From Desulfosporosinus nitroreducens (lineage in GTDB: Bacteria; Bacillota; Desulfitobacteriia; Desulfitobacteriales; Desulfitobacteriaceae), in NCBI RefSeq assembly GCF_023897015.1, contig NZ_JAMHFY010000023.1:1-64000 (forward strand): a stretch of 64,000 bases of DNA. The letters run 5' to 3'. This document shows, piece by piece, positions 39,868-57,999 of the stretch (position 1 is the stretch's first letter; every line of letters starts with the position of its first letter). Both the position numbers and the translations under genes were made by a program. The notes beneath the pieces were generated by a model. It ran no database searches. It was not told the origin of the DNA and saw only the letters and a program-made list of their open reading frames with translations.

Positions 39868-40509
39868 TTATTTTGTGATTGTTATTTTTGAGGTTGATGC
39901 GAGCTGCATGGCATTCGCTTCTTCCGTGTCGAGATGAAATTCAAGTGCCGAGGTGTTATTTGCTCTGATAAGGACATTCGAGTAAGTTCCTCCCCGAAGT
40001 CCGTCTATTTGGATGGTTACCAATTCTCCATCTGTAACCCCAAAGTTATGGGCATCATCCAGGGTCATATGAATATGCCGCTGGGCAATCAAAACCCCTT
40101 TGGAAAGAAGGATACTTCCTTTGGGACCAATAAGAGTGATTCCCGGAGTTCCTTGCAGGTCTCCAGATGATCTCACGGGCGCGGTTATGCCGAGTTTGAA
40201 ACAATCTGCCAGGAGTATTTCTACCTGAGTCTCTTTTCGCGCCGGCCCGAGGATGCGAACCTTTTCAATAGTCCCTTTGGGACCAGCCAGGATTAGCGTT
40301 TCCTTGCAGGCATATTGCATGGGTTGGGACAAATCCTTAGTTTTCGTCAATTGGTATCCTGCACCAAACAAGGTTTCCAAATCCACTTGAGAAAGATGAA
40401 TATGACGGTTAGATATTCCTACGGGTATAGAGCTTAAATCCGCTTTTAAATACCCCCCTTCTTTGATTGCTTCCAATAGAAGCGCTGCTAAATCGTCATA
40501 CTTTCCCAC
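39868..40509 (-). CDS. pduL: Phosphotransacylase PduL
   Basis: Converts acetyl-CoA and phosphate to acetyl phosphate and CoA inside the compartment, which recycles CoA. Two PduL domains with zinc-binding histidines in GISNRHIHLS (residues 36-38) and AQRHIHMTLDDA (about 145). 213 residues. The N-terminal amphipathic segment YDDLAALLLEAIKEG may be an encapsulation peptide. It begins 3 bases after the aldehyde dehydrogenase gene, so translation is probably coupled. Confidence 0.95.
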   Translation of the reverse strand: MGKYDDLAALLLEAIKEGGYLKADLSSIPVGISNRHIHLSQVDLETLFGAGYQLTKTKDLSQPMQYACKETLILAGPKGTIEKVRILGPARKETQVEILLADCFKLGITAPVRSSGDLQGTPGITLIGPKGSILLSKGVLIAQRHIHMTLDDAHNFGVTDGELVTIQIDGLRGGTYSNVLIRANNTSALEFHLDTEEANAMQLASTSKITITK

Positions 40510-40511
40510 GT

Positions 40512-41996
40512 TTAGTTACCACCTCTTTTTTTCAGGAGCAAAATAACTTCATTCACAACGTTCATAATCTGATCATCGCTAATGGCAGCAGGGCTGTTGC
40601 TCTGTGCCACGCAGGCTGAAGAGCAGGAGGTTGTGTTTTCGGTGAAGTCTTTGATTCCATAGGCTATACGTTTAATATTGATCAAGTGCATGGGGGTTAC
40701 ATTATCGGAGGTTGCACTTCCGCCCCAAGTACCACAACCCAGTGTAAAGGATGGGGAAAGTCCTGTACTTGCGCCCACACCGCCTTGGCTGGAGGCTGTG
40801 TTGACCAAGATCCTGAAGACAGGTTTTTCAGCGAATTTCATGACCATTTCTTGATTTTCCGTATGAATGGAAAGGCTGTGCCCAACACCGCCGTTATTCA
40901 AGAGTTTGATGCACAGGTCACAAGCTTCCTGCCAATCTTTTACTGTATAAAATGCCAGCACGGTAGTCAGCTTTTCGTAAGACAAGGGATATTCTTCGCC
41001 CACGCCCTGTTGTTCCCCTAACAGGACTTTTGTGCCCGGAGGAATGGCTATGCCGACACTGTCTGCGATAACTGCAGCGGATCTGCCTACCATTTTCGCA
41101 TTCATAGCATGACCGCGGACAAACAATTTTTTGGCAACTTGGTTTGTTTCCACGGGGGTCATGAAGTATCCACCCTGTCGTCTGAATTCTTCCATAACCT
41201 GGTCACGCATACATTCCTCGACGATAACTGATTGCTCGGATGCACATATGGTTCCATTGTCAAAGGTTTTACTAGCAATAATATTTTTGACTGCTTTCGT
41301 AATATTGGCAGTTCTTTCGATATAAGCCGGAACGTTACCCGGGCCTACACCCAAGGCCGGCTTCCCTGCACTATAGGCAGCCTTAACCATGGCTGAACCG
41401 CCTGTTGCTATAATCATGGCGACTTCATCGCATTTCATGAGTTCATTGGTTGCATTCATCGAGGGTTTTGAGATACAGCCAATGATATTAGCCGGTGCAC
41501 CGGCAGCTACTGCGGCATCGTTCATCAGTCTGGCTGCTTGCATGGTGCATTTCAAAGCTGAAGGATGCGGAGAGAACACAATCCCGTTACGAGATTTAAT
41601 GGCAATAATGGATTTGTATATGGCCGTCGATGTAGGATTGGTTGAGGGAATAATCCCCATGAGTACTCCTACCGGTTCAGCGATTTCCATTATTTTATTG
41701 ACCTTATCGTCTTTGATGACTCCAATGGTTTGCATAGGTTTAATGAATTCATACAGTTCTGTGGAAGCAAAATGATTTTTGAAGATCTTGTCTTCTACTT
41801 TACCAAATCCCGTTTCCTCTACAGCCAGGTTGGCCAGAGAAACAGCATTTTCCTCTGCTACTTTCACCATATTGCGGATGATTTTCTCAATTTGCTCGCC
41901 ATTAAACTTTGCAAGTTGAGCCTGTGCCAGTTTAGCCTGACGGGCAAGATTTCTTGTCTCTTGCACGGATTGTAAATCATAATCAAAGTTTTCCAA
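40512..41996 (-). CDS. CoA-acylating acetaldehyde dehydrogenase, catalytic Cys present
   Basis: 494-residue EutE/PduP-like enzyme that oxidises acetaldehyde to acetyl-CoA with NAD+. The active-site Cys251 lies in FDNGTICASEQS, and the family segments IPSTNPTS, GGSAMVKAAY and GPGNVPAYIE are normal. N-terminal residues 1-30 and the C-terminal DDQIMNVVNEVILLLKKR look amphipathic, as in BMC-targeting peptides. The paralogue at 54591-56084 has Ser at the identical position, so this copy should carry the activity. Confidence 0.93.
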   Translation of the reverse strand: MENFDYDLQSVQETRNLARQAKLAQAQLAKFNGEQIEKIIRNMVKVAEENAVSLANLAVEETGFGKVEDKIFKNHFASTELYEFIKPMQTIGVIKDDKVNKIMEIAEPVGVLMGIIPSTNPTSTAIYKSIIAIKSRNGIVFSPHPSALKCTMQAARLMNDAAVAAGAPANIIGCISKPSMNATNELMKCDEVAMIIATGGSAMVKAAYSAGKPALGVGPGNVPAYIERTANITKAVKNIIASKTFDNGTICASEQSVIVEECMRDQVMEEFRRQGGYFMTPVETNQVAKKLFVRGHAMNAKMVGRSAAVIADSVGIAIPPGTKVLLGEQQGVGEEYPLSYEKLTTVLAFYTVKDWQEACDLCIKLLNNGGVGHSLSIHTENQEMVMKFAEKPVFRILVNTASSQGGVGASTGLSPSFTLGCGTWGGSATSDNVTPMHLINIKRIAYGIKDFTENTTSCSSACVAQSNSPAAISDDQIMNVVNEVILLLKKRGGN

Positions 41997-48425: not shown

Positions 48426-49409
48426 TTAATGTCTGATGACTTCAACCTGTAAGTCATACCCTTTTATGAACTCTTCAATTTTATCTAACTCTTCTTCTTT
48501 GAAGCTTAAATCCTCGCTGATAGCGTATTTTAAGTCCAATTGCTTATATTTGTTAATGCCCAATTTATGATAAGGAAGCAAGTCTATACCCTGAAAGTTT
48601 TTGTAACGTTTGAAGGACTCTAGAAATTCCAGTGTTCTTCGCAGGGTGTCTGCACTATCATTCAGTCCCCTGATGAGGGGCATCCTGACCTTAACTGTAT
48701 ATCCGCGGCGTATGAGTTCTGTCAGGTTGTCCAGAATACGTTCATTGCGCACCCCAGTAAGTTCATAATGCCGCTCAGAATCGATTTGCTTAATATCATA
48801 TAAAAACAAATCAGTAAACTGCGCAATCGTAAGCAGGGAATCCAGTTTTACATATCCCGAGGTTTCAATGGCTGTGTGAATTCCCATGCGCTTGCATTCC
48901 GTCAACAGGTTGGTGGCAAATTCCGGTTGTGCTGTGACTTCCCCTCCCCCAAGAGTGACTCCACCGCCTGAACTGAGGTAGAAGGGCAAATCCTGTTGAA
49001 TAATTTCCAGGACTTCGGAAATAGTTTTATCCGTGCCAACAATGGACAGTGCCTGTTTAGGACATACGGTTTCGCACTTTCGGCAACCGACACAGTCGAT
49101 ACTTCTCCGGACTTTATGCACGAGTCTTTCACTTTTAGTTTGCAGTTGCCCGTCTTCTCCATCTAAGAAATGATGTATTTGGACGGGACAAACAGGAATA
49201 CAGTTGCCACAGTCAACGCACAAATCCTCTTTGAACATGACCTGATATTTTCGTTCAAGTCCCTCCGGATTTGAACACCACTTGCATCTCAGGGGACACC
49301 CTTTGAAAAAAATTAATGTTCTAACGCCCGGTCCATCATAGATGGAATACTTCTGGACATTGAAGACTCTTGCCTTTCTTTCTAAGAAGCTACCGGTTTC
49401 TGTACTCAT
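48426..49409 (-). CDS. cutD: CutC-activating radical-SAM enzyme
   Basis: Installs the glycyl radical on CutC. The AdoMet cluster motif CPLRCKWC (CxxxCxxC) is followed by a two-[4Fe-4S] ferredoxin insert (CVDCGNCIPVC, CVGCRKCETVC) as in choline-type activases; then GGGVTLGGGEVT and the DIKQIDSERHYELTGV segment. 327 residues. It is separated from cutC by a winged-helix gene and an EamA transporter gene rather than being adjacent, as is usual in cut loci. Confidence 0.95.
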   Translation of the reverse strand: MSTETGSFLERKARVFNVQKYSIYDGPGVRTLIFFKGCPLRCKWCSNPEGLERKYQVMFKEDLCVDCGNCIPVCPVQIHHFLDGEDGQLQTKSERLVHKVRRSIDCVGCRKCETVCPKQALSIVGTDKTISEVLEIIQQDLPFYLSSGGGVTLGGGEVTAQPEFATNLLTECKRMGIHTAIETSGYVKLDSLLTIAQFTDLFLYDIKQIDSERHYELTGVRNERILDNLTELIRRGYTVKVRMPLIRGLNDSADTLRRTLEFLESFKRYKNFQGIDLLPYHKLGINKYKQLDLKYAISEDLSFKEEELDKIEEFIKGYDLQVEVIRH

Positions 49410-50831: not shown

Positions 50832-53375
50832 CTAAAAGTGATCTAACACTGTTCTGCTAATAATTTCATCCTGTACTTCCTTGCACAGTTCTACGAAGTA
50901 AGCACTGTACCCAGCGACGCGAATGATTAAGTCTCGATACTTGTCAGGTTCGATTTGCGCTTTCTTCAATACTTCGTTATCAACATAACTGAACTGCATC
51001 TGACCATTTCCGAGGATGGATGCTGTTCTGAGCAAGGTGATCAGGCCATTTTCTCCTTCCGGAGTTTCCAGAATGCCTCGTAACAGTTTGAAGTTGTGTA
51101 CCATACCAATATTCATAGACTCGTTACTTAGCTTGCTGACCGATTTAATGATAGCTGTGGGTCCCAATTTGTCGGCACCTTGTGTCGGGCTAATTCCATC
51201 TGACAAAGGTGTCCAGGCCAAGCGTCCATTCGCGGATGCACCAGTAATTTCTCCGATAGGCGTGTTGTTCGAAATGGATAAGGTACCATGAGTAAAGTTC
51301 GAGTACAGCATTTTAAAGGTTTGGTGAACCCGTTCAGTCCAGATGATGATATCCGAGGCAATTTCATCGGCATAGTCATCGTCATTTCCATATTTCGGTG
51401 CATTTAGACAATCCGTGCGAATGGATTCGAAGCCTTCGTAGTTCGCAACCAATGCCTCTCGGATTTGTTTTAGAGTATATTTCTTGTCGTCAAAAACCAG
51501 CTTTTTAATAGCGGCCATCGAATCAGCATAGGTTCCTAAGCCGGAGAAGATAAGTCCAGGGCCGCAATTGACTAGAGCGCCACCGTTTGTAACATCGGTG
51601 CCTTTTTCCATACACCCTTCTACCAGTAAAGACATGAGGGGTTTTGGAGCTACGTCTCTGTGAACCCGCTGGCTGACAAGAGTTCCTATGGCAGATAAGC
51701 GGATAATATGCTCGATTTGTTGTTTGCAGGCAGCATCAAATTCTTCATAGGTCTTGATATTGTCAAGATCTCCTGTGTCTAGACCTTGCATGGTGCCATG
51801 CCATTTCATCATACCGCGATTAAGAACAAATTCTATAGCAATAGGCCATTGGGTATAACCGGTGGATGTCCATTGATAAATTCGGCCGGACTTTTGCGGT
51901 TCTACGCAGCCCATAAGGCAATAATCCCGTGAATCTTCTATGGAGAATCCCTTGGCAAGCATCATTTTGATATGAGAATCATCAAAGTGACAGGCGGGGA
52001 ATCCAAGCCCTGCTTTAACAACGTCGACGATCTTCTTCAAATATTGTTGCGGTGATTTGTTGTGAATCCGGCAAGCCAGAGACGGTTGATACATCTTAGT
52101 GAAACGAACGGCATCCATAATCAGATACGTCAGATCGTTGGTTGCGTCACCACCGGTTCTCTTCTGTCCGCCAATAGTACAGTTGATAAACGGTTGATAG
52201 CCTGCAAAATACTTTGCTCCCAGTTCACTGGAGAGCCACATTACTTCGGAGCATTTAATAATAAAACTACTCAGCAGTTCAAAGGCTTCTAATTTGTTCA
52301 TTCGGCCTGCTTCCATGTCGGCCTTGAACATGGGATAAATGTATTGATCCAAGCGTCCGAGGGAAATACCTGTTTGGTTCTCTTCCACTACAAACAAGGA
52401 TTCTAGGGTCCAGATGGACTGGAGTGCTTCATGGAAAGTACGAGGCGGATTAGCTGGTACAGACGTTAAAATATCGGAAATCTTGTAAAGTTCTTTCTGT
52501 CGGGCTAAGTCATGCTCTCTGTCAGCCAGTTCTCTTGCATAATCAGAAAGCCGTTTGGCATAAGCCAAAATACCGTCACAAGTCTCTATCTCCGCTTTAT
52601 AGAAGTAAATCTTATCCATGTCATCCGGATTTTCCATGGACAATTGGTTCAATCTGTCGACAGCTTCCTGTCTTACAGCGTTAATACCCTTTTTAATCAG
52701 TATGACATCGTAACCCGGGCAAGTGTCTCCACCGCCGTTGACCTGATGGTAAGAAAGGTCACTGACAAAAGATTCGCCAGAAAATGACCATACCCCAGCC
52801 TCTTCATATTGATTCTGACAAATCTCATCTAGGCTCTTTCCTTCCCAGTAGGGGAAGATTTCTTCCCGCAGAATCCGCTTGTCCTCCTCACTGACTTGGA
52901 AGGGATCCTGGGGCCGAGTTGACATGGTGTCTAGTTCGTCCCGAACCCATCTCCAGGCAATATCCGGGGATACTGCACCAGCTCTTGGTTTACCACAAGG
53001 ATGTCCTACAATCAACTCATCGTTTTGAATCACCAAGGGAGCAGTCTCACAGGCTTTTCTAAAGCACTTGGCCCGTAGGAGAATTTTGGGTAACCCCACA
53101 TTTTCCTTGGTCACTTGGGTGAAGGCTCTGGCACGATAAATACTAACACTTGGTTTAACCTTTAAATAAGCTGCTTTCAGTCGTTCCAGTCGAGGTGTCA
53201 GTCCTGTGATTTCCCCTTCATAGACAGGTGATTTTGTCACAGTGTTTGTTGCCGGAGTGTTTGCGGACAATTCCTTGGAAATCCCCTGAAACAATTTCAT
53301 GATGGCGGATGTTTCCTCTGGGGACAAGTGTTTTGTGGCATCCGCAAATTTATTTGAAAACTCTTTGATATCCAA
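50832..53375 (-). CDS. cutC: Choline trimethylamine-lyase (glycyl-radical enzyme)
   Basis: Cleaves choline to trimethylamine and acetaldehyde. 847 residues against 846 in Desulfovibrio alaskensis CutC. All active-site residues known from that enzyme are here, shifted by one: Tyr209, Asp217, Phe396, Cys490 (GCVEP), Glu492, Thr503 and Tyr507. The glycyl radical residue is Gly822 in RVAGYSA. The first 45 residues (helix [20 protein letters not shown] and a Thr/Pro/Asn linker) look like an encapsulation peptide. Fifth gene of the minus-strand operon, behind two shell genes, ALDH and ADH. Confidence 0.97.
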
Positions 53376-53426: not shown

Positions 53427-54563
53427 TTAAAATGCTTTTTGATAGATACCGATCAGATCTTCTTTGGATGGTTGTCTAGGATTGGTGGGGGTACACCGAT
53501 CATGAAGGGCCAGCTCAACCATATTACTTACTTCGTTCTCAAAGTTGCTTTTATCAATTCCCAAATCGCGAATGCGACTGGGAATGCCCAGGGATTTCCT
53601 CAAATCCGCGACGGCCTGCATGAAATTTATCGTTCCTTCCCGGTTAGTCCGAGCAGGCAGTTGCAATATAGCGGCCAATTTCGCGTATTTTTGGGAAACG
53701 TTTCTACTGGTATTGCTGTTCAAATTAGCATTGTATTCAAGCACTGCACTCAGTAAAAGCGCATTGGATCTCCCGTGGGAAATGTGAAACGTTCCTCCCA
53801 AAGCATGGGCGAGGCTGTGGTTAATTCCCAGATTGGCATTTGTAAACGCCATACCCGCAATACAAGATGCATTTTGAATTCGCTCTCTCGCACTGGAATC
53901 AGTCACATCTTTATATAAAGTCCTGAGATTCCCAAAAATTAATTGGATCGCCTTTTCCGCAAGCGCATCAGTGCAATCCGTCGCCTCCGTAGAAACATAA
54001 GCCTCGATGGCATGTACCAAAGCATCAATACCGGTATCTGCCACCACGGACTGGGGTACATGCTGGATGCAAGTGGAATCAAGTATGGCTATATCCGGAG
54101 CCATCCACTCATCAACAATACACACCTTTTCCCCTTCGGCAGTAATGACGGCGAAATTCGTCACTTCAGATCCTGTCCCGCTTGTGGAAGGAATAGCAAT
54201 GAATAGCGGTTTCTTGAATTCCTCTCCGGCAGCTTTTCGGAACTGCCACAAAGAGTATAAAATGCCCTTAGCTGCATCAATGACAGACCCACCGCCCAAA
54301 GCGACGATAGTATCCGCACTGGTTTCCAGGTATCTTTTCATCCCTGCGGCAATAACTCTTACATCAGGGTCAGGAGTCACTTCCGTAAAAACAACAGACT
54401 TTATCCCTGTTTCATTAAGATAATCGATAGTTTTTTGAAGGTACCCCAACTTCTCCATAACAGAATCAGATACAATAAACGCACAGGACCCTTTGATTTC
54501 TTTAAGAAATTCCATGGATCCCTCGTTAAAATAGATCTTCGGTTTAATAACAAACTTTTTCAT
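53427..54563 (-). CDS. Iron-containing alcohol dehydrogenase (acetaldehyde to ethanol)
   Basis: 378-residue group III alcohol dehydrogenase. NAD-binding GGGSVIDAAKG, the STSGTGSEVT segment, and metal ligands Asp/His in DALVHAIEAYVS, AHALGGTFHISHGRSNALLL and HDRCTPTNPR. Regenerates NAD+ for the acetaldehyde dehydrogenase. No clear targeting extension. It stands between the Ser-variant ALDH gene and cutC, each 50 bases or less apart. Confidence 0.93.
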   Translation of the reverse strand: MKKFVIKPKIYFNEGSMEFLKEIKGSCAFIVSDSVMEKLGYLQKTIDYLNETGIKSVVFTEVTPDPDVRVIAAGMKRYLETSADTIVALGGGSVIDAAKGILYSLWQFRKAAGEEFKKPLFIAIPSTSGTGSEVTNFAVITAEGEKVCIVDEWMAPDIAILDSTCIQHVPQSVVADTGIDALVHAIEAYVSTEATDCTDALAEKAIQLIFGNLRTLYKDVTDSSARERIQNASCIAGMAFTNANLGINHSLAHALGGTFHISHGRSNALLLSAVLEYNANLNSNTSRNVSQKYAKLAAILQLPARTNREGTINFMQAVADLRKSLGIPSRIRDLGIDKSNFENEVSNMVELALHDRCTPTNPRQPSKEDLIGIYQKAF

Positions 54564-54590: not shown

Positions 54591-56084
54591 TTACTTAAGT
54601 AGCTCAAGCAATTTTTCGAGCACCTCTTTTAAATCACCCGAACTTTCAATGGAACAACCATCGACGAAGCAACGAGTTCTGCTTGTTTCAGCGACCTCTT
54701 CCACTTGCGCACCCTTGGTTATATCCTCTAGTTGCCGTACACCATAGCCGACTTTTCGAATATTAATCAAGTTCATGGGGGTGACATTATCAGAGGTATA
54801 CCCGCCGCCTGCCGTACCGGAACCCAAGGTTAAAGCCGGGAAGAGATTGGTTGTCGCCCCTATACCCCCTAATGACGCCGGCGTATTCACCAGTACTCTG
54901 GATACAGGTTTTTTTAGGGCAAATTCCCGGATCACATTCTCATTCTTCGAGTGAATGACCAAGGTATGTCCTCGACCTTCATTTATAAGCAATTCTATGC
55001 ATTTTTCGCAAGCATTCATCCAGTCCTTTTCAACGTAAAAGGCCAGAACCGGGCAAAGTTTTTCCCTTGAATACGGATTGCTGGAGGAGACATATTTTTG
55101 TTCTGAAATCAATACTACCGTATCCTCGGGGACACATATGCCGCTATGCCGCGCCAACTCTAACGCCGTTTTTCCGACAATTTCTGTATTTAAACTGCCA
55201 TCAGGACGGAAAAATAACTTACTGAGCTGAACTGATTCCTGCTCTGACATGAAATGAGCTCCCTTTTTCCTGAGCTCTTGCCTTACTTCATCAGCGATAC
55301 AGCCCTCAGCAACAATGGATTGTTCCGAGGCTGAGACAATTCCGTTATCGAAGGTTCTGCTGACAATGATATCTGCTACGGACTTTTTAATGTCAGCAGA
55401 ACGCTCAATAAAGGCGGGTCCATTCCCCGGGCCACCATAAATAGTCGGTTTTCCAGATGTATACGCCGCCTTGACCATCTTGGGCACGCCCGTAATCAGA
55501 ATAAGAGATGTATCTTTATGGTTCATCAAGGCAACCGTACCGTCCACGGCCAGCGTTCGCAAATAACCGATGGCACCGCTTGGCAATCCACTTTCTTCTG
55601 CAGCCTGTATTAATATATCAAGTACCTTGGTGATTGTTTTTTTGGCCTTAGGATGAGGAGAAAAAACAATCGCATTACCAGACTTAATGGCAATCAGCGC
55701 TTTATATATAGTAGTTGATACAGGGTTGGTTGAAGGTGGCAACGCAACAATCACTCCAACAGGCACGCCAATATCCATGGTCTTGTTTTCTTTGTCTTCA
55801 TTGATAATGCCGACAACTTTCATGTCCTTGATTTTCTTAAAGAGAAAATCACTCGCAAAAATATTCTTGACAAGCTTGTCCTGCCATTTACCAAATCCTG
55901 TTTCTTCCTGGGACATCACTGCAAGTTCTCTAGCATGTTTATAGGCTGCTTCAGCCATATTCCCGACGATTTTATCCAGTTTTTCTTGTGGAAAAGCCGC
56001 TAGCTCCTTTTGCGCCTCTCGGGCATTTTCCACAAGAATTCGAGCCTCTTGGACGGAGAGCAAATCATTGTCAACTCTACTCAT
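54591..56084 (-). CDS. Aldehyde dehydrogenase paralogue with catalytic Cys replaced by Ser
   Basis: 497-residue close homologue of the dehydrogenase at 40512-41996. The active-site motif is FDNGIVSASEQS, with Ser251 (codon at 55332-55334) exactly where the other enzyme has Cys251. GGPGNGPAFIE also differs from GPGNVPAYIE. Loss of the nucleophile should abolish CoA-acylating activity unless Ser can substitute. N- and C-terminal helices (DNDLLSVQEARILV; SGDLKEVLEKLLELLK) keep the targeting-peptide look, so a structural or substrate-binding role is plausible. Confidence 0.92.
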   Translation of the reverse strand: MSRVDNDLLSVQEARILVENAREAQKELAAFPQEKLDKIVGNMAEAAYKHARELAVMSQEETGFGKWQDKLVKNIFASDFLFKKIKDMKVVGIINEDKENKTMDIGVPVGVIVALPPSTNPVSTTIYKALIAIKSGNAIVFSPHPKAKKTITKVLDILIQAAEESGLPSGAIGYLRTLAVDGTVALMNHKDTSLILITGVPKMVKAAYTSGKPTIYGGPGNGPAFIERSADIKKSVADIIVSRTFDNGIVSASEQSIVAEGCIADEVRQELRKKGAHFMSEQESVQLSKLFFRPDGSLNTEIVGKTALELARHSGICVPEDTVVLISEQKYVSSSNPYSREKLCPVLAFYVEKDWMNACEKCIELLINEGRGHTLVIHSKNENVIREFALKKPVSRVLVNTPASLGGIGATTNLFPALTLGSGTAGGGYTSDNVTPMNLINIRKVGYGVRQLEDITKGAQVEEVAETSRTRCFVDGCSIESSGDLKEVLEKLLELLK

Positions 56085-56139: not shown

Positions 56140-56430
56140 TTACCAGTCGATAACGTATTTGGCGACAATCTTTTCTACCTCCGCATGCGGCCTGGCAATC
56201 ACAAGGGAGCTATAGATCTGGCCCACTTTGCCCGCTTCTTTAACGCCGGCATCTACCGCCGCTTTCACCGCGCCCACGTCCCCACGGACCACGACTGAAA
56301 CCAAACCGGAAGCCACGTTTTCATACCCAACCAATTCTACATCCGCAGCCTTGCACATGGCATCCGCTGCTTCCAGCACCGAAACCAGGCTATACGTTTC
56401 TATGAACCCTAAAGCACTATTGTTGTCCAC
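56140..56430 (-). CDS. BMC-H shell protein 2
   Basis: 96 residues: [65 protein letters not shown] lies 5 bases before the GTG at 56430; the longer frame to 56448 has no ribosome site. Adjacent to the shell gene at 56458 on the same strand. Confidence 0.93.
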
Positions 56431-56457
56431 GCGGACTCCCCTTTCCAAATCAATGTT

Positions 56458-56757
56458 TCATTCCGCATCAATGTCATGACTCGAAACAATCTTGCCTACT
56501 CGGCTGATGGGACGCGGCATAACGTGGAAGGCTGTCAACTCTCCAATGGCTGCTGCGGCTGCTGCACCGTTTTCTACAGCCGACCTCACTGCTGCTACAT
56601 CCCCTTTAACCATGACCGTGACAAGTCCGGAACCCATGTTTTCATACGAAACAAGAACAACGTCAGCCGTTTTACACATGACATCTGCCGCTTGAATTGC
56701 CGGAACCATGCCTCTTGTTTCAATAAGACCTAATGCCTCTTCTCCAGAGTATTTCAT
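56458..56757 (-). CDS. BMC-H shell protein 1 (first gene of the operon)
   Basis: 99 residues: [69 protein letters not shown] precedes the ATG. It heads the minus-strand operon that runs without clear terminators to 39557. Pore motif GSGL versus ASGL and GGAL in the other two BMC-H proteins. Confidence 0.94.
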   Translation of the reverse strand: MKYSGEEALGLIETRGMVPAIQAADVMCKTADVVLVSYENMGSGLVTVMVKGDVAAVRSAVENGAAAAAAIGELTAFHVMPRPISRVGKIVSSHDIDAE

Positions 56758-57053: not shown

Positions 57054-57084
57054 AATACAAGTTAATAACTTGGTGGAGATATTT

Positions 57085-57999
57085 ATGAGAATGGAAGAAT
57101 TAGTCCAAGAAAAACTGCGCCATGCTTTTCATGATGAAAGCATTGTCTTTGATAAATCCCGCTTTGCCGGCGGACTTACCAATTACAACTACATCATGAA
57201 CATTAAGGGTATTGAATATGTCATCAGGCAACCCGGCGGCATGACGGAACAGATTATTGATCGAAAAATAGAGAGAGTCAATAATAATATTGCCTCTGAG
57301 TTAGGCGTGAACTCCGATTGCATTTACTTTGATGAATACAGCGGAATCAAAATAAGCATAAACATAAAAAATAGCCAAAACTTGGCTCAAGCTGATCCTG
57401 GCTCACCCAAAAACCTGGATTCCGTTTCGATTATAATGAAGAGAATCCACTCATATCCCAAGGGTTTTTTGAACCGCTTCGATTGGCAAGCAGAGCTTTC
57501 CAAATACGAACTGATTATCCAACAATTGCACGGCGACCTTTTCTTTGATTACACAACTCTACGAGACCAGTTAGTCACTTTCGTCCAAAAAAATATCAAA
57601 AATACAATTTTGGTGCCCTGTCACAATGACACAGTACCTGAAAACTTTATCACTGATGATACTGGCAAAACATATCTTATAGACTGGGAATATTCTGGCA
57701 TGAATGATCCCTGTTGGGATGTGGCTGCCTACATCCTGGAATCCAAACTATCTTCCGAAGCTATTCACCATTTAATTCAGAACTACTTCGGACAGCCACT
57801 GACTCCTATGGAAGAGTTGAAAATAAAATGCTTTATGATGGCTCAAGATTTACTCTGGACTGCCTGGGCTTTAATTAGACACTACAACGGGGATGATTTT
57901 CTTGAGTATTGCTTGTTTAGGTATGAACGTTTCCGAAAGAATATCAAAGCAATGACCAAATCCCCCCATTGTTCCATTGCCAGCATGGTTACGAGTTGA
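57085..57999 (+). CDS. Choline kinase-like phosphotransferase (LicA family)
   Basis: 304 residues. Gly-rich loop GGLTNYNY, Brenner motif CHNDTVPENFI with catalytic Asp, and metal-binding DWEYSGMNDPCWDVA match LicA/choline-ethanolamine kinases. It should phosphorylate choline (or ethanolamine). GGTGGAG 6 bases before the ATG at 57085 fixes the start; the frame is open from 57070. It is divergent from the choline-degrading operon, so an anabolic and a catabolic choline route start from the same region. Confidence 0.88.
   Translation: MRMEELVQEKLRHAFHDESIVFDKSRFAGGLTNYNYIMNIKGIEYVIRQPGGMTEQIIDRKIERVNNNIASELGVNSDCIYFDEYSGIKISINIKNSQNLAQADPGSPKNLDSVSIIMKRIHSYPKGFLNRFDWQAELSKYELIIQQLHGDLFFDYTTLRDQLVTFVQKNIKNTILVPCHNDTVPENFITDDTGKTYLIDWEYSGMNDPCWDVAAYILESKLSSEAIHHLIQNYFGQPLTPMEELKIKCFMMAQDLLWTAWALIRHYNGDDFLEYCLFRYERFRKNIKAMTKSPHCSIASMVTS

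Follow-up and report, generated by a model that had tools for sequence, protein, structure and literature searches.

Every GRM1 locus with two aldehyde dehydrogenases (AldDHs) was reported to have the catalytic Cys of one of them replaced by Ser or Pro, and the inactive AldDH was proposed to act as a scaffold or regulator (Axen et al., 2014; PMC4207490). The second copy of GRM1A and GRM1B loci was likewise marked as putatively inactive (Sutter et al., 2021; PMC8217296), and no established role for the inactive GRM1 AldDH was found in the literature. A structural function has been described for CutF of Klebsiella, which forms oligomers, has an encapsulation-like sequence at its C-terminus, and both enlarges and cross-links the CutC core (PMC6971018). 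Its recruitment requires the long N-terminal domain of CutC, and the authors of that study were not certain of encapsulation in the presence of CutF (PMC6971018). For acylating aldehyde dehydrogenases (ALDHs), Cys269, His387, Glu357 and the nucleotide loop at residues 215-223 have been mapped in the propionaldehyde dehydrogenase Cphy1178 (4c3s), whose C269A mutant has no activity (PMC4762007).

The locus described here lies in 64,000 nucleotides of Desulfosporosinus nitroreducens DNA (the window). It encodes a short CutC, CutD, PduS/PduT, EutJ/P/Q-type proteins and two AldDHs, and thus represents a GRM1 choline locus (type I cut). The EutJ, PduT-like and RnfC/PduS-like members were recognised by profile search, and EutP and EutQ were assigned solely by gene order. 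One AldDH gene is located upstream of CutO-CutC, and the other, which encodes Cys251, is located beside PduL. The main features are as follows.

39868-40509, minus strand: PduL-type phosphotransacylase (NF011652)
40512-41996, minus strand: catalytic CoA-acylating aldehyde dehydrogenase (Cys251), 494 aa, TTG start, adjoining PduL (ORF; TIGR02518)
41244-41246, minus strand: TGT codon of catalytic Cys251 in the active copy
48426-49409, minus strand: CutD, the CutC-activating radical SAM enzyme (TIGR04395, 538 bits)
50832-53375, minus strand: CutC choline trimethylamine-lyase, short (GRM1) form, 847 aa (TIGR04394, 1568 bits)
53427-54563, minus strand: CutO-type iron alcohol dehydrogenase (profile match and gene position)
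54591-56084, minus strand: CutF-type aldehyde dehydrogenase-like pseudoenzyme, 497 aa (ORF; TIGR02518; non-Cys clade)
55332-55334, minus strand: TCA codon of Ser251, at the catalytic Cys position of the pseudoenzyme
56140-56757, minus strand: two genes for BMC shell proteins, immediately upstream of the pseudoenzyme gene (ORFs and conserved synteny)

A phosphotransferase-like ORF at 57070-57999, choline kinase-like by eye, adjoins the locus. Between the window and D. lacus (L081), cutC (50832-53375) has a dS of 0.77, as against 0.19 and 0.10 for the two AldDH genes, a contrast which suggests that cutC may have been exchanged by recombination.

A sequence-only reading of the window had described two paralogous AldDHs in a choline compartment locus that differ by Ser and Cys at residue 251, and this description is correct to the base in both codons and coordinates. 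The residue lies in the context FDNGIVSASEQS in the Ser copy and FDNGTICASEQS in the Cys copy. Both proteins exceed the curated cut-off (620.1 bits) of TIGR02518, the NCBIfam profile for acetylating acetaldehyde dehydrogenase, with 675 bits for the Ser copy and 737 bits for the Cys copy, and they are approximately 47% identical to each other. The Cys nucleophile of active CoA-acylating AldDHs is absent from the 54591-56084 copy, which has Ser251 instead. Loss of this Cys in one GRM1 AldDH has already been published (Axen et al., 2014; PMC4207490) and is not new here.

Loci for comparison were collected with CutC as an unbiased anchor, yielding 28 loci from genomes and 80 named loci. The sequence-only reading had proposed aligning the orthologous copies from other GRM1 loci to see whether Ser is conserved. 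In that alignment, Cys never occurs at site 251 among 39 GRM1 orthologues (Ser 35, Pro 2, Ala 2), and it is found in 59/59 of the other relatives. The non-Cys state is therefore conserved, but Ser itself is not strictly kept; where Ser occurs, its codon is always TCN. In loci showing both AldDHs, the CutF-type copy is non-Cys in 35/35 and the other copy is always Cys; L099, L101 and L091 join this set once a second copy, located on a different contig or in an additional stretch of sequence, is counted. Where the flanks contain only a CutF-type AldDH, it has Cys in 46/46 loci, the G396 satellite locus (Ala) being set apart. Within the host's class, the pseudoenzyme is present in all CutC-bearing genomes, and full-length orthologues are confined to CutC genomes with the single exception of G032, a fragmented MAG whose contig stops 225 bases past the pseudoenzyme gene.

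Both locus types exist in Enterococcus, with Cys in the absence of a second AldDH (L122) and Ser in the presence of one (L147, L154, L171). In Enterococcus quebecensis and E. ureasiticus (L121, L125), the arrangement is cutC-EmrE-cutD, and neither a shell gene nor an AldDH was recognised in the flanking DNA.

In the corrected tree, all non-Cys copies fall into a single clade (100/100), separate from that of the PduL-linked copies (100/98). In a quick tree, the non-Cys clade is joined (99) by the gammaproteobacterial GRM2 CutF-type clade, which has Cys, and by a single Cys copy from Enterococcus, and the AldDHs of long-CutC loci in Tissierella and Clostridium tarantellae fall near Listeria 3k9d; this tree contained three wrongly extracted rows (L002, L055, L058), which were mended in the corrected tree, from which the long-branched L096 was omitted. 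Since every outgroup has Cys, the residue was most simply lost in the GRM1 stem. As this loss is one event on the tree, its association with a second AldDH is not independently replicated. Judged by its position upstream of CutO-CutC, its tree placement and its C-terminal encapsulation-like helix, the 54591-56084 gene is the GRM1 orthologue of CutF.

Changes in the pseudoenzyme extend to the nucleotide loop and the substrate end of the active site. The residues concerned are encoded at the following positions.

54840-54842, minus strand: Phe415, bulky, close to the substrate/nicotinamide end of the tunnel (alignment to structures)
54966-54968, minus strand: His373, retained (general base His387 of Cphy1178)
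55485-55487, minus strand: Val200, where the ATGG loop has its invariant second Gly (Gly218 of Cphy1178)
55725-55727, minus strand: Asn120, retained (oxyanion Asn138 of Cphy1178)

Instead of the intact ATGG nucleotide loop, the pseudoenzyme has ITGV. Residue 200 is Val in 36, Ile in two and Ala in one of the 39 pseudoenzymes, and Gly in 59/59 Cys enzymes. Furthermore, Ala197 is mostly replaced by Ile or Val, and Thr122 by Val or Ala. Gly200, Ala197 and Thr122 belong to the positions that Cys enzymes conserve at 97% or more. Position 415 varies in those enzymes (mostly Ala, Ser or Thr, with one Phe among 59) and is Phe in 38 pseudoenzymes and Tyr in one. Positions 197-203 correspond to residues 215-221 of Cphy1178, inside the loop (215-223) that shifts upon NAD binding, and position 420 corresponds to Ile433, whose backbone holds the nicotinamide. 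From these substitutions, the site looks closed rather than merely mutated, and the loop and substrate-end changes would be expected to block NAD+. A literature search for AdhE cofactor contacts gave nothing. The general-base His and Glu341 are kept in the window copy. Across the 39 orthologues, Glu341 is universal, the His373 position is Asn or Gln in three, and the Asn120 position is Ser in eight.

The predicted structure of the pseudoenzyme has an ALDH fold (mean pLDDT 82.3), with 3k9d as its best structural match (Z 52.9, rmsd 2.1 over 451 residues). Its tail carries one further feature.

54594-54638, minus strand: C-terminal amphipathic helix, residues 483-497, of the encapsulation-peptide type (predicted; tail conserved in orthologues)

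In the model, this helix (483-496) follows a low-confidence linker at 460-483. Because the models are of low confidence at 246-252 and 419-432, no pocket geometry was taken from them, and arguments about the site are based on alignment to solved, ligand-bound structures.

Since Klebsiella CutF cross-links core enzymes, the pseudoenzyme is best explained as a CutF that has given up catalysis and persists as a scaffold or cross-linker of the core in the shell, with the Cys251 copy doing the chemistry, a reading that we hold to be somewhat probable. The sequences show that in the GRM1 lineage, where another AldDH is encoded next to PduL, CutF lost the catalytic Cys a single time and that residues of its nucleotide loop and substrate end were replaced too. 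Such a protein would no longer bind NAD+ productively or oxidise acetaldehyde. It would still assemble into ALDH oligomers whose subunits carry an encapsulation-type helix at the C-terminus, and would reside in the lumen, where, by analogy with Klebsiella CutF, it could cross-link or dock core enzymes inside the shell while the Cys251 copy would carry out the acetaldehyde chemistry. Because GRM1 CutC is without the domain contacted in Klebsiella, the partner of the pseudoenzyme must differ. A dependence of the N-terminal helix of GRM1 CutC on the pseudoenzyme was also considered and is not supported, as the helix persists in loci without the pseudoenzyme. The suggestion of a conserved dead paralogue in the sequence-only reading is supported by the 39/39 non-Cys orthologues, purifying selection and the altered nucleotide-binding loop. 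Its suggestion of a structural role, offered there beside a chaperone-like one, has become the best-supported reading, one which we infer from orthology with GRM2 CutF, the retained fold and tail, and rate patterns.

Pseudoenzymes often stabilise or regulate an active paralogue. A dead subunit might accordingly mix into Cys251 tetramers, and the two copies do share fold, family and locus, as well as encapsulation-type C-terminal helices. When the proteins are divided by the domains of Cphy1178, the rate ratio of pseudoenzyme to active copy is 1.92 for the cofactor domain, 1.30 for the catalytic domain and 0.90 for the oligomerisation segments. The last of these are not relaxed in the dead copy, as a hetero-oligomer partner would have it, with a block-shuffle P of 0.07 that leaves their conservation only suggestive. 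However, the low identity between the copies speaks against mixed tetramers, as does the occurrence of the active copy without the dead one in Paenibacillus and Brevibacillus. The G396 satellite locus, a small locus of shell genes, an Ala pseudoenzyme, CutC and CutD, also keeps the dead copy, with CutC and CutD the only co-encoded core enzymes. Mixed tetramers are therefore considered unlikely. That G396 retains the dead copy though most of the GRM1 locus is lost agrees with a function near the shell and CutC. G396 was also examined as an exception, with an Ala copy and no second AldDH in the locus, and this was resolved by a Cys AldDH located elsewhere, in a second, EUT-like compartment locus (L097 and L195 for the two loci of G396). 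In the Paenibacillus alvei GRM1 locus (L155 18090-19587), the sole AldDH is split in two frames by a frameshift or an assembly error.

Alternatively, the site could bind NAD(H), CoA or aldehyde and report metabolic state without catalysis, a function compatible with the retention of Glu341, Pro143, His144 and the Gly220 motif in pseudoenzymes. However, Val or Ile in place of Gly200, Ile or Val in place of Ala197, and Phe415 predict a blocked site. Moreover, relative to the active copy, variability is raised 2.6 times in a shell of hand-picked positions around the active site and 1.5 times in the rest of the protein. A sensor or regulator of this kind is improbable, and the altered cofactor site also speaks against the substrate-channelling role raised in the sequence-only reading.

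A similarly low probability is assigned to a neutral relic, in which a duplicated enzyme decays once it has been functionally replaced. Pseudoenzyme distances are indeed a median 1.88 times those of matched active copies, six GRM1 loci have the active copy only, and the gene is broken in one Desulfosporosinus genome (G017). However, the median dN/dS over 70 pairs is 0.101 for the pseudoenzyme (active copy 0.056, CutC 0.046), and a value near 0.10 indicates that the gene is constrained. Furthermore, many Bacillota families keep the gene whole and in synteny, and changes specific to its clade, Val200 and Phe415 among them, have become fixed. The broken copy, on the complete G017 chromosome (L077 15414-16893), has an internal deletion and a frameshift that leave it in two frames; the deletion takes out part of the nucleotide loop, and the active copy is intact. 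Given six loci without it and this broken copy, the pseudoenzyme is, by its distribution, dispensable in some lineages.

A new activity in which Ser251 serves as the nucleophile is very improbable: the prevalence of Ser and its constant TCN codons would suit it, but Pro and Ala also occupy the site, and the general-base and oxyanion residues are replaced in some orthologues. A strain-specific mutation is ruled out, and a sequencing error is scarcely conceivable, because about 40 independent loci share the non-Cys state; no point in favour of either was found.

A fuller version of the retired-CutF scaffold is offered tentatively, as falling a little short of probable. It holds that a dedicated structural protein was made from an enzyme through one Cys loss, with fixed bulky residues closing the cofactor site, selection acting only for assembly and catalysis passing to the second AldDH. 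If this is true, cross-linking by CutF would predate the chemistry of the protein and be separable from it. The core organisation of metabolosomes is largely open, and a dead descendant of a demonstrated cross-linker would separate scaffolding from catalysis in one protein. The pseudoenzyme also offers a clean genetic test of scaffolding and, if its role is confirmed, a non-catalytic scaffold usable in engineered compartments.

Among known systems, the pseudoenzyme corresponds to the inactive second AldDH of GRM1 loci (PMC4207490, PMC8217296), with the same locus type and the same change of Cys to Ser or Pro. To these accounts, the sequence comparisons add the Ala state, an apparent closure of the nucleotide loop, a single origin, orthology with CutF and measurements of selection. 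The closest solved structure, the Listeria monocytogenes aldehyde dehydrogenase (PDB 3k9d), is 55-56% identical and differs in retaining Cys and the nucleotide-loop Gly. Cphy1178 is more distant (29% identical) and differs in being active and of the N-terminal encapsulation peptide type. GRM2 CutF of Klebsiella pneumoniae shares with the pseudoenzyme its position before CutO-CutC, 57-61% identity and a C-terminal encapsulation-like helix. In contrast to the pseudoenzyme, GRM2 CutF has Cys in every copy seen, is the sole AldDH in most GRM2 loci and works with a long CutC, whereas GRM1 CutC is short and without that N-terminal domain.
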